A stretch of DNA of 58,669 nucleotides from a virus, in IMG/VR virus record IMGVR_UViG_3300042392_001665, positions 1 through 58,669 of that record; one strand, 5' to 3'. Positions 9,558 through 27,948 of this stretch are shown in pieces. The translations under genes were made by a program, and so were the position numbers. A model generated the notes under the pieces. That model had not been told where the DNA came from and did no database searches. It saw only the letters and a list, made by a program, of their open reading frames with translations. Position 1 is the first letter of the stretch. Every line of letters starts with the position of its first letter.

Positions 9558-10211
9558 TTAAAAATCTGGATAACCTTTTGTTGCACCAAATTTATTTCTA
9601 GCTACACTATCATTTCTTAAATTAATATCAGTTAATGATCCAATAGATCCATTATTTTCACCTTTTCCTTTTTCATCACCATCTGATAATGCATTAGGAT
9701 TTGTACTATTATACCCATTTTGATTATTATATGGGTTTCTATTTAAGCTTTCAGTTCTCGTTTTTATGTCGGTTAATGAACCAATACTATTACTATTCTC
9801 ACCTTTTCCCTTTTCATCACCATCTGATAATGCATTAGGGTTAGTTACACCATAGCCTTTGTTTTGAAAATACGTATTTTTAGCCATTAGCTCATTTCTC
9901 GTTAGTATATCAACAGAAGAACCAATGGTACCATTTTCACCTTTTCCCTTTTCATCGCCATCTGACAATGCATTAGGATTATTTGAATTATACTCATTAC
10001 TTGGAGAATAAGGATTTTTAAGTAAATTATTAACCCTAGTTTGAATATCTAAAGATGAACCAATAGTTGCTGTTTCTCCTTTACCTTTTTCATCCCCATT
10101 TGATAGTGCATTTTCATGTGTTATACCATAACCATTTTTTTCAAGATATGAATTTCTTGTTAAGTGTGCCTGTCTTTCTTTCTCAGCAATAATTTCTAAT
10201 TGTGTTGCCAT
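9558..10211 (-). CDS. Repeat protein with four ~46-residue DGDEKGKGE units
   Basis: 217 residues made almost entirely of four tandem units of 46-47 residues plus a half unit at the N-terminus. Each unit contains N-A-L-S-(D/N)-G-D-E-K-G-K-G-E, then (S/T)IGS-x-x-DI-x-x-R, then an N-x-Y/F…GY hairpin. No enzyme motif, signal peptide or membrane segment. The Gly/Asp/Lys-rich core could bind metal ions or form an extended chain; role unknown. The repeats are also similar at the DNA level, consistent with recent duplication. It ends 2 nt before the WYL-like gene and starts 2 nt after the 163-residue gene, in a run of probable late genes. Confidence 0.8.
   Translation of the reverse strand: MATQLEIIAEKERQAHLTRNSYLEKNGYGITHENALSNGDEKGKGETATIGSSLDIQTRVNNLLKNPYSPSNEYNSNNPNALSDGDEKGKGENGTIGSSVDILTRNELMAKNTYFQNKGYGVTNPNALSDGDEKGKGENSNSIGSLTDIKTRTESLNRNPYNNQNGYNSTNPNALSDGDEKGKGENNGSIGSLTDINLRNDSVARNKFGATKGYPDF
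9650..10110 (-). repeat. Four direct DNA repeats, ~140 bp period, inside the repeat-protein gene
   Basis: A ~45-bp core containing CATCTGATAATGCATTAGG (plus-strand sense, with small changes) recurs near 9685, 9823, 9961 and, more diverged, 10099. The period of ~138-141 bp equals the 46-47-residue protein repeat. The three left copies are nearly identical in DNA; the right copy is the most diverged. Confidence 0.8.
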
Positions 10212-24508: not shown

Positions 24509-24997
24509 ATGGCAGATTTATTAATGAAAATGCCGGTTCCATATGAACCGAAACGTAAAAATAGATTTATCCTAAGATTTCCATCATCTTTAGGTATAAA
24601 CGAATGGTATGTAACATCCACTGCTCGTCCTAGTGCTAAAATTAACGCAACAGAAATTCCATTTTTGAATACTTCAACATACGTAGCAGGTAGATTTACA
24701 TGGGACCCAATTAAAGTTACTTTTAAAGACCCAATTGGTCCTTCAGCATCTCAGGCTCTTATGGAGTGGTTCCGTTTACATGCAGAATCAGTTACAGGTA
24801 GAATGGGCTACGCCGCAGGATACAAGAAAAATGTGGAGTTAGAAATGTTAGATCCAACAGGGGTAGTAGTTGAAAAATGGATTCTTGAAGGTTGTTTCTT
24901 AACTAGCTTAAACTTTGGTGATTTGAACTATTCTCAAGATGAATTAGCAACAATTGATGCTGAATTGAGAATGGATAGATGTATCCAAGTATATTAA
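24509..24997 (+). CDS. 19: Tail tube protein, T4 gp19-like
   Basis: 162 residues, almost exactly the size of T4 gp19 (163). RKNRFILRFPSSLGINEWYVTSTARPS is the N-terminal tube strand pair (NRF-x-(V/L)-x-(F/I)…W-x-(V/C)…RP). WDPIKVTFKDPIGPSASQALMEWFRLH is the central tube motif (W-x-P-I-x-V-x-F-x-D-P…W). VELEMLDPTGVVVEKWILEGCFLTSLNFGDLNYSQDE closes the beta barrel. Hexameric rings stack into the inner tube through which DNA passes. It has its own promoter-like leader and is followed by a double terminator, so it is a monocistronic, highly expressed gene. Confidence 0.93.
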   Translation: MADLLMKMPVPYEPKRKNRFILRFPSSLGINEWYVTSTARPSAKINATEIPFLNTSTYVAGRFTWDPIKVTFKDPIGPSASQALMEWFRLHAESVTGRMGYAAGYKKNVELEMLDPTGVVVEKWILEGCFLTSLNFGDLNYSQDELATIDAELRMDRCIQVY

Positions 24998-25137: not shown

Positions 25138-25878
25138 ATGGATAATATTAACCCAATGGTATCATATGATGTGGTATCTCTTCCATCTCAAGGAGTTCAT
25201 TATGAGGATGGCAGAAAAACATTAAGAGTTGCTTATTTAACAGCATCTGATGAAAATATATTAATGTCTCCCAATCTAATTCAATCTGAAACGGTTATTG
25301 ATGAGTTATTAAAAAGAAAGGTATTAGATAAAGAAATATCACTTGATGAAATTGTTGAAGAGGATAGACAGGCTATTTTAATCTTTTTAAGAAATACAGC
25401 ATTTGGTACAACATATACTCTAACCCTAACAGATCCAGGAACAAAAAAGCAGTTTGAGGGTGAATTAGATTTATCTGTATTGAAGGTTAAGGAATTTAAA
25501 TTGGAGAAAGATTCAAATAACGAATATTCATATGTTTTACCAATTTCAAAGAAAACTATAACATTTAAATTTTTAACGAATACTCAAGAAAAAGAATTAC
25601 AATCAATAAAAGATGCTGGTGGTTCAAATGTTATTCCTCTGAATACTAAAAAATTAGAAATGATGATAAAGTCAATTGATGGACAAAGAGATCAAATGGC
25701 TATATATCAATTTATTCAAAATTTACCAATCAAAGATTCTTTAGATTTTAAAAAATTTGTTGGAGAAAATAAACCAGGTTTAGACCTAATAGTTGATGTA
25801 ATCGCCCCGTCAGGAGAAAAAGTCCCAGTTTTGGTTGACTTTGGGGTGGAGTTTTTTCGTCCCTTCTACGGAATATAA
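25138..25878 (+). CDS. 26: Baseplate hub / tail-assembly chaperone, T4 gp26-like (short form)
   Basis: 246 residues. YDVVSLPSQGVHYEDGRKTLRVAYLTASDENIL then ELLKRKVLDKEISLDEIVEEDRQAILIFLRNTAFG is the T4 gp26-type pattern (LPS-x-G-x-x-Y…E-x-I-L…L-L-x-x-x-V…D-R-x-A-I-L-x-x-L-R-x-x-x-(F/Y)G). T4 gp26 is a hub protein. Its slot between tube and tape-measure genes is the slot of tail-assembly chaperones in many phages. The reading frame ends 6 codons after a run TTT TTT C; a +1 shift there extends the protein by 46 residues (see next entries). No TATTTATA in the leader, only TATTAATA ~30 nt upstream. Confidence 0.75.
   Translation: MDNINPMVSYDVVSLPSQGVHYEDGRKTLRVAYLTASDENILMSPNLIQSETVIDELLKRKVLDKEISLDEIVEEDRQAILIFLRNTAFGTTYTLTLTDPGTKKQFEGELDLSVLKVKEFKLEKDSNNEYSYVLPISKKTITFKFLTNTQEKELQSIKDAGGSNVIPLNTKKLEMMIKSIDGQRDQMAIYQFIQNLPIKDSLDFKKFVGENKPGLDLIVDVIAPSGEKVPVLVDFGVEFFRPFYGI
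25840..25858 (+). promoter_or_regulatory. Programmed +1 frameshift site (predicted)
   Basis: GGGGTGGAG followed by TTT TTT C. The purine-rich stretch ends at 25851; a 3-nt spacer (TTT) separates it from the slip codon TTT 25855-25857, whose tRNA-Phe can re-pair one base ahead on TTC. This copies the layout of the bacterial prfB (RF2) site: SD, 3-nt spacer, slip codon. Codons 25852 and 25855 are in frame with the ATG at 25138. Confidence 0.6.
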
Positions 25879-25999
25879 GAAAAATCAAATACAAGCAATT
25901 TTATTCCTTTTAAGTAAAGGATTCACCTACCATGATCTGTTAATATTGCCGATACATGAAAGAAATAGTATTATCAATGCGATATTGGAAAACAATTAA
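25859..25999 (+). CDS. +1-frame extension of the chaperone (long form C-terminus)
   Basis: After the slip the +1 frame reads VPSTEYKKNQIQAILFLLSK, then GFTYHDLLILPIHERNSIIN and AILENN, stopping at TAA 25997-25999: 46 residues, giving a 286-residue long form. The segment has the Y/F-x-x-E…I-x-x-L-x-x-x-G-F/Y-S/T-Y-x-D-x-x-x-L-P-x-x-x-R pattern seen in C-terminal parts of phage tail chaperones, so it is coding, not chance. The alternative is a separate gene from TTG 25835 or 25841, overlapping the upstream gene; no good ribosome site supports that. It ends 7 nt before the promoter motif of the tape-measure gene. Confidence 0.65.
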   Translation, partial: VPSTEYKKNQIQAILFLLSKGFTYHDLLILPIHERNSIINAILENN

Positions 26000-26031: not shown

Positions 26032-27948
26032 ATGGCAGAAAGTAAAGGTGAATTTTTAAAATACTTATTAAATCTAGGTATAGAAAAGGGTGATGCTGAC
26101 AAGGCTGCCGATAGGTATGGTAAAGCAATATCTGAAATTTCATCAAAAACATCAAAACAAAGTTCTAGTACAGGTTCTGGTACTGCTGGATTAAGCCAAG
26201 CTTTTATAGATCAACAAGCAACAAACATTGCTAGGGTCAACGTTCAAACAGGTGAAAAAATAATAGCCGCGTTATCAAAAACAATTAGTTTAAATCCAAT
26301 TGAAATTGCTAAAGCAATAATTTCAGGCGGTATTGATGGAATTAAAGCGGTTATCGCTGATATCACTAATTTAGATAAAGAATTAATAGAAAGAGTTAAA
26401 GGTGCTGGTGGGTATGTGGGAAGTACTGCTCAGGGTATGATGGATTCCACCAGAGAAGCTATGATAGCATCACAGCAATTTGGTGTAGCAACAAATGATA
26501 CCTTAGACGCTGTTAAAGATTTAATGGTCAATTCCGAGAGAATGTCCATGTACAATGATAAAACCATTTCTACAGCTATGGTTGCGTCATTAGCTTTTGC
26601 TAAGAATTCTAGAGTTATATTAGAAAACGCTGAAAATTTTAGGAATGTTGGTTTAGGATTAGATGGAGCTGCAAAGTCAATAACAGATATTGGTTTAAAA
26701 TCTGTTAAAGTTGGTTTAAGTGCAAAATCAACAACCGATACATTAGTGATGCAGCTCGGTAAATTAAATCAATTTGGTTTTCAAGGTGGTATTGCTGGTT
26801 TAGGTAAAATGGTTCAACAAGCTCAATCACTAAAAATAAACATGGAAGATGTTTTTAGAGTAGCCGATAAATTATATGATCCAGAAAGTGCAATAAATTT
26901 AGCTGCTAACTTACAAGTTGTTGGTGGTGCTATTGGAGATTTTTCCGACCCAATAAAATTAATGTATGATGCAACAAATGATGTTGGTTCATTACAAACA
27001 AGCATTATTGGTGCAGCAAGAAGTTTAGCAACATATAACGCAGAGCAAGGTAGATTTGAAGTAACTGGGGCCAATTTAAGAAGAGCTAAGGCCATGTCCG
27101 ACGCTTTAGGTATATCGATGGGTGAATTGACTAATATGGCTGTTAAAGGGGCTGCAAAGATGGAAGCTATGAGTGAATTAGATATGTTCCCATCACTTAG
27201 TGACGATCAAAAAGAATTTGTTTCCAATTTATCTACAATTAAAGACGGTAGAGTTGGATTTGATATACCAAAAGATATGGCTAAAAACTTGGGCCTAACA
27301 AATGTGGTTGATGGGTTTGTTGGTTTGAGTGATTTATCAGATGATCAAGTAAAATTATTACAAAAATTACAAGAAGAAGCTGCTGAACAAACACCAGAAA
27401 AAATAGCAAAAGATCAATTCAACCAAACAACACAAATCTTAAATGTTGCAACAGCAATTTATTTAAGAATGATGGAGGATACCAGAAAAAGCTCACTTGG
27501 AAAGGCCGCAACTGATGGAATGAATGAAGCTGCAAAATTTATGGAGAAATTTAATCCAGCACAACAAAGTACCGGAGAAATAACAAATCAAGCAATAGAA
27601 GAAGTAAGTAAATTAGCAAAAGATACATCTGAATTATTTAAGGGTAAACTTAAAGAATCAATAGACCCAGATATATTAAAGGTTATTGATGAATTAAAAC
27701 AAAAGACTAGCGAAATTTATAATCAAATGAATATACCTGAAATTATAAATAAGGGTAAAGAGGCTGGTGGGGATATAATTGACAAGGGAATTGAACTTAT
27801 TAAAGAAATATTCGTAAATGTTAAAGTTGATATAAACAGCAACAATAGTGCATTAGCTGGTATAGTTGTGGATGAAATTGAAAGAACACCACAATTAAAG
27901 GCGTCACTTGCGTCTAGTATAGTTAAGGGTATTAATGATTACGCATAA
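26032..27948 (+). CDS. 29: Tape-measure protein (T4 gp29 counterpart)
   Basis: 638 residues (T4 gp29 is 590), almost wholly helical and rich in Ala, Gly and Ser. It follows the tube and chaperone genes as tape measures do. Long amphipathic runs include TNIARVNVQTGEKIIAALSK, NPIEIAKAIISGGIDGIKAV and REAMIASQQFGVATNDTLDAV, and a Gly/Ala-rich middle (LGMSMGELTNMAVKGAA-like) suggests membrane-active or coiled packing within the tube. The C-terminal ~100 residues turn acidic. It would set tail length and be ejected during infection. No peptidase domain seen. Its length agrees with a T4-size tail. Assignment mainly from order and composition. Confidence 0.7.
   Translation: MAESKGEFLKYLLNLGIEKGDADKAADRYGKAISEISSKTSKQSSSTGSGTAGLSQAFIDQQATNIARVNVQTGEKIIAALSKTISLNPIEIAKAIISGGIDGIKAVIADITNLDKELIERVKGAGGYVGSTAQGMMDSTREAMIASQQFGVATNDTLDAVKDLMVNSERMSMYNDKTISTAMVASLAFAKNSRVILENAENFRNVGLGLDGAAKSITDIGLKSVKVGLSAKSTTDTLVMQLGKLNQFGFQGGIAGLGKMVQQAQSLKINMEDVFRVADKLYDPESAINLAANLQVVGGAIGDFSDPIKLMYDATNDVGSLQTSIIGAARSLATYNAEQGRFEVTGANLRRAKAMSDALGISMGELTNMAVKGAAKMEAMSELDMFPSLSDDQKEFVSNLSTIKDGRVGFDIPKDMAKNLGLTNVVDGFVGLSDLSDDQVKLLQKLQEEAAEQTPEKIAKDQFNQTTQILNVATAIYLRMMEDTRKSSLGKAATDGMNEAAKFMEKFNPAQQSTGEITNQAIEEVSKLAKDTSELFKGKLKESIDPDILKVIDELKQKTSEIYNQMNIPEIINKGKEAGGDIIDKGIELIKEIFVNVKVDINSNNSALAGIVVDEIERTPQLKASLASSIVKGINDYA

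Follow-up and report, generated by a model that had tools for sequence, protein, structure and literature searches.

Tail assembly chaperone gene and its frame junction

The window, which is the whole analyzed stretch of 58,669 nucleotides, carries a gene that matched PF12322 (E 8.5e-8, over the cut-off) and phrog_150 (E 1e-10) in a profile search, as expected for a member of the T4 gp26 family (Table 1). The gene is located 3' of a clear tail tube gene, and the 638-aa ORF that follows it is probably the tape measure. This ORF had no family match in profile searches against Pfam and PHROG families, and its similarity to the corresponding protein of phage Mel-JY01 was only weak (phmmer E 0.0011).

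The sequence at 25840-25878 reads TTT GGG GTG GAG TTT TTT CGT CCC TTC TAC GGA ATA TAA. The frame-0 stop lies six codons after the second TTT of TTT TTT C, and the +1 frame past this site stays open for 46 codons, followed by TAA at 25997-25999; the fused product would be 286 aa. These values agree with the initial annotation, as does the position of the GGAG within GGGGTGGAG, which ends 3 nt before the second TTT. In this window, the +1 frame is open for at least 47 codons at 2.9% of random in-gene points. In-frame TTTTTTY occurs only three times among the 35 genes of the window, one of them in the chaperone gene. These figures, and above all the relatives described below, speak against a chance opening. 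The codon after the run, CGT, is used at 2.0 per 1000 codons in the window versus 28.5 for AGA, which makes up 81% of the Arg codons.

Table 1. Positions of the chaperone locus and its neighbors in the window
Feature	Coordinates	Strand	Basis or remark
Tail tube gene (gp19-like), upstream neighbor	24509..24997	+	PF06841 E 1.2e-6; phrog_4542 E 5.6e-29
TAC-N, frame-0 ORF, 246 aa, predicted short tail assembly chaperone form (T4 gp26 family)	25138..25878	+	PF12322, phrog_150
G-rich stretch GGGGTGGAG, 5' of the slip	25843..25851	+	GGGG ends 8 nt and GGAG 3 nt before slip codon 2
Putative slip site TTT TTT C	25852..25858	+	The second TTT (25855-25857) is the presumed P-site codon and would re-pair to TTC (25856-25858)
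Putative A-site codon CGT	25858..25860	+	Codon bias in relatives and codon usage of the window
TAC-C, 46 +1 codons and stop, predicted C-terminal extension of the 286-aa long form	25859..25999	+	Open in relatives; third-position excess
Frame-0 stop TAA, which terminates the short form	25876..25878	+	Sequence
638-aa ORF, probable tape measure, downstream neighbor	26032..27948	+	Position; weak similarity to the Mel-JY01 counterpart

Conservation of the +1 tail among relatives

A slip site conserved in relatives had been proposed as a check of the initial annotation, and it was found. A first scan returned 36 relatives, and the +1 frame was open with a recognizable tail in all those reaching far enough past the site. 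With later scans and phage-record matches, the set contained at least 284 loci (at least 249 non-redundant) in which the +1 tail is open past this junction. Scoring a locus as +1 required 25 or more open codons beyond the frame-0 stop, and 25 of the 284 had an open -1 frame as well. The relatives include phages of Flavobacterium, Microcystis, Rhodothermus, Bacillus, Listeria and Streptococcus, Bacteroidota MAGs and several isolate genomes. The distance from the site to the frame-0 stop is 3 to 10 codons, in most cases 4 or 6.

Differences among the tails were distributed over +1 codon positions 1, 2 and 3 as 3877, 2476 and 7377. This third-position excess indicates that the +1 tail is a translated frame under selection at the protein level.

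Some short-form homologues lie apart from this pattern. Four rumen or gut Bacteroidota MAG contigs (L144, L150, L151 and L156) carry one with no convincing tail nearby in any frame. At L147:2-91 on another contig, an ORF truncated by the contig edge has a tail-profile match (E 6e-7) in its terminal part, and a short-form gene that lacks a tail of its own is located downstream. The T4-like division into a long and a short gene may have arisen here a second time, independently.

Sequence rule of the slip site

The codon statistics below were calculated against each gene's own usage for 164 cluster representatives, which are mutually related, so the values are guides rather than exact probabilities. 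The slip codons are TTT TTT in most loci and TTT CTT in ten, with a few exceptions. Among the representatives, codon 2 is TTT in all 155 Phe cases (112.5 expected) and otherwise CTT or, once, CTA, while codon 1 is sometimes TTC. The base preceding the T-run is T in only 1 of 164, compared with 35.6% T in third positions, and is G in the window. The pyrimidine after the run is invariant in the relatives. The next codon, placed in the A site, is TGG in 150 and CGN in 91 of 245 loci. When it encodes Arg, it is CGN in 60 of 60 representatives (10.4 expected). Upstream, Gly at -3 is encoded by GGG in 73 of 107 (13.3 expected), and Asp at -1 by GAC in 34 of 34 (9.0 expected).

The initial annotation had likened this layout to that of the bacterial RF2 gene prfB. 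The two sites share the +1 direction, a P-site YTT that would re-pair to TTY, and a purine-rich stretch upstream; some relatives use exactly the CTT T of prfB. As a general feature, however, the RF2-like layout was not supported. The SD-like element of prfB stands at 3 nt, where GGAG is present in the window and in only 18 of the 164 representatives, and GGGG at 8 nt before slip codon 2 is commoner (68/164). In prfB the A site holds a stop codon, whereas here it holds a sense codon, CGT in the window and CGN or TGG in nearly all relatives, and the autoregulation logic of prfB has no counterpart at the chaperone site.

Other possible signals were considered. CCT after the A-site codon (153/159) was rejected as a stimulator: the +1 frame needs CTN (Leu) at this position, so protein coding can explain it. 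Five sequences gave no sign of a downstream (3') RNA structure (z from -0.5 to +0.7).

Proposed mechanism and alternative explanations

From the comparison of relatives, which establishes the conserved +1 frame, the slip site, the flanking codons and the homology to the T4 gp26/gp51 family, we infer that one gene very probably makes both a short (246 aa) and a long (286 aa) tail assembly chaperone by a +1 shift at TTT TTT C. This is the outcome that the initial annotation had proposed, and the comparison supports it for a site of the form TTT TTT Y. Most ribosomes would read through TTT TTT CGT in frame 0 and terminate six codons further on, with TAC-N as the product. Some would pause when peptidyl-tRNA-Phe is on the second TTT and the A site holds CGT, a rare Arg codon; the tRNA-Phe would re-pair one base further on, from TTT to TTC, and reading would continue in the +1 frame to give the long form, TAC-NC, with its predicted three-helix tail. 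The frame relation by itself fits +1 and -2 shifts alike.

The slip most likely takes place on the second codon, because the alternatives there are CTT (once CTA), while codon 1 tolerates TTC; one locus with TTT CTA TTC (L039) is at odds with this assignment. A following C or T would let tRNA-Phe re-pair with TTC or TTT, whereas AGA would give TTA. The comparison supports the re-pairing suggested in the initial annotation. Codon bias is what points to a possible role of the G-rich stretch and of a slow A-site codon. TGG, the commoner A-site codon in the relatives, is however fixed by tRNA-Trp alone. The GGG bias is probably an RNA-level signal, because the stretch lies upstream of the shift and is untranslated in +1.

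An SD-like tetramer is missing from the 20 nt before the start of each of the 35 window genes, a pattern also known from Bacteroidia, although about 10% of random coding 20-mers have one. The G-rich stretch may still contact rRNA, because Bacteroidia commonly keep an SD-type prfB shift (72% of genomes; PMC8710568). Start sites lacking SD motifs, relatives among Flavobacterium phages and contigs from Flavobacteriales MAGs together suggest a host in Bacteroidota.

An alternative is that a small gene of its own, with a start codon or re-initiation site, encodes the tail, and that the two proteins act apart. The family does use such an arrangement elsewhere, since an ATG overlaps the short-form stop in BX-1 and Cygsa01 and overlaps or adjoins it in LR756511; the annotators of immuto and Mel-JY01 also called the tail a gene of its own. 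However, the window tail contains no ATG, Met is absent from the first 12 residues of the tail in 140 of the 164 representatives, the upstream +1 frame is closed within 5 codons in two relatives (L020 and L021), and a separate gene would have no need for a codon bias specific to the site. We consider this explanation improbable.

It is slightly less probable again that slippage of RNA polymerase on the T6 run produces mRNAs lacking one base, which are then read in one frame. Runs of T6 to T7 are possible slippage sites, and the products would be the same, but loci without six Ts in a row (TTT CTT TGG, TTC CTT, TTC TTT and TTT CTA) keep the +1 tail, and re-pairing of a tRNA agrees better with the invariant pyrimidine and with the biases toward CGN and GGG. 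An error of sequencing or assembly in the T6 run, named in the initial annotation as what would overturn the frameshift and plausible in that homopolymers commonly err, is refuted by the same frame relation, each time with an open and conserved tail, in the at least 284 loci from many metagenomes and several isolate genomes. Judged by this comparison, the frame break at the junction is a real, conserved programmed +1 site and not an assembly error.

Relation to T4 gp26 and gp51 and to -1 tails

T4 gp26 and gp51, listed as hub assembly chaperones (PMC3004832), both match PF12322 and phrog_150, and the family to which the window gene belongs (PF12322, phrog_150, phrog_634) follows the same short/long logic; gp26 corresponds to the short form and gp51 to the long one. 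In T4 these are two separate genes on opposite strands, whereas here a single gene has a +1 tail. T4 has two family copies and the other 21 records matched by the profile have one each, in a count for which the profile missed immuto and Mel-JY01. Neither shifted frame of T4 gene 26 encodes a tail.

In other members, the tail is in the -1 frame rather than in +1. A -1 tail is open at T TTT TTN in the cyanophages S-PM2, P-SSM2 and S-CAM1, in ValKK3 and avDM12 (Straboviridae), and in phiN3, Astolliot, RHph_N34, Atu_ph07 and PA5oct. Such tails are found in cyanophages, KVP40-like phages and some jumbo phages, and sequence comparison shows them to be homologous to the +1 tails (hhalign 95.6%, E 1.1e-8). 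No gp51 gene is annotated in S-CAM1. The gp51 of cyanophage and marine vibriophage was described as lacking the first ~200 residues (Sullivan et al. 2010; PMC3037559), and this truncated form fits a tail encoded in the -1 frame.

Other junctions were observed as well. In L057, L061 and L045, the tail ORF has an ATG that overlaps or adjoins the short-form stop and no slippery run, the ATG arrangement described above and a third way to the tail part. In Serratia phage phiMAM1 (L059), the -1 tail is open at a junction with neither a T-run heptamer nor an overlapping ATG.

The -1 tails matched the C-terminus of gp51 (hhalign 88.8%, E 2.5e-6). A direct hhalign comparison of the +1 tails with gp51 was not significant; one +1 tail matched phrog_634 at 7e-6, and the window fusion had no phrog_634 match. 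The +1 tail therefore appears homologous to the C-terminus of gp51 indirectly, through the -1 tails. The link between the T4 pair and the frameshift pair suggested in the initial annotation holds in its substance, although it is not new, as described below.

In a tree of the N part, T4 gp26 and gp51 form a group (96/88) beside the group with -1 tails or overlapping ATGs. A duplication in the line of T4 is suggestive only, because gp51 is a long branch. The tree is compatible with a single origin of the +1 state. On balance, we lean slightly toward a history in which the shift reversed its direction within a homologous family while staying at a Phe-Phe T-run. It would be -1 at T-TTT-TTN in the T4/cyanophage branch and some jumbo phages, and +1 at TTT-TTT-Y, followed by a rare CGN or by TGG and with no T before the run, in a large, mostly uncultured lineage. 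The +1 site would then be of a sense-codon class, helped by a G-rich stretch spaced unlike that of prfB.

Predicted structure and comparison with other phage systems

The short form and the tail were folded separately with AlphaFold2. The N part was predicted with a pLDDT of 92.9, and its BFVD matches are predicted T4-like baseplate hub/gp26 proteins. The tail was predicted as three helices (pLDDT 91.5). A Foldseek search against the PDB gave no significant match, with the HK97 chaperone 2ob9 at E 5.1.

To our knowledge, the sites in Listeria phage PSA and haloarchaeal HSTV-2 differ from the one described here, and their proteins are unrelated to the chaperone. As far as they are covered in PMC9024508 and PMC5009743, both also use a +1 shift in structural or tail genes. 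The lambda gpG/gpGT pair (PMC5009743) likewise comprises a short form and a less abundant form with a C-terminal extension, both made from a single gene close to that for the tape measure, but lambda uses a -1 shift at X XXY YYZ, in contrast to +1 at TTT TTT Y. The window falls outside this -1 heptamer class (X XXY YYZ in phase with a -1 tail), as its tail is in +1. By analogy with lambda, the chaperone would bind the tape measure in many short and only few long copies, and tube subunits would be brought in by the tail. Membership in the T4-like chaperone family predicts tape measure binding, absence from the virion and a need for both forms.

Relation to prior work

The abstract of Vladimirov et al. 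(2022) reportedly names genes 26 and 51 and states that frameshifting is kept in several T4-like groups. An earlier review had listed T4 as the exception to tail-chaperone frameshifting (Atkins et al. 2016; PMC5009743). Tail assembly chaperones of T4-like phages were then identified by Vladimirov, Gautam and Davidson (Virology 2022, 566:9-15), as cited in PMC10274946, which refers to that work for T4-like phages having a short gene and a long fusion gene in place of frameshifting; in PMC12846349 the same work is the source given for poly-T signals of the -1 type in T4-like chaperone genes. As represented in these citing papers, the 2022 work largely settled the T4 exception. No report of a +1 site in the gp26/gp51 family was found in the literature searched, which covered only a minority of subscription papers. 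The short/long principle and the T4 26/51 link are thus already published, and what looks new is the +1 direction and its sequence rule.

The loci described here form a large, mostly unannotated group with a +1 instead of a -1 tail at a homologous junction. The rule is testable in the phase of the T-run, the absence of T before it and CGN or TGG after it. The +1 and -1 lineages together offer a natural experiment on what sets the direction of a frameshift. In such genomes, a small 'hypothetical' gene that follows a gp26-like gene should receive an annotation as the second half of a single protein.

Additional observations

On the minus strand of the window, 9558-10211 encodes a 217-aa protein with about four repeats around SDGDEKGKGE...SIGS..DI. 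In the S-PM2 record (L047:17929-29268), an 11.3-kb CDS annotated as 'short tail fiber protein' extends across a series of tRNA genes in the same orientation, which looks like an annotation slip.
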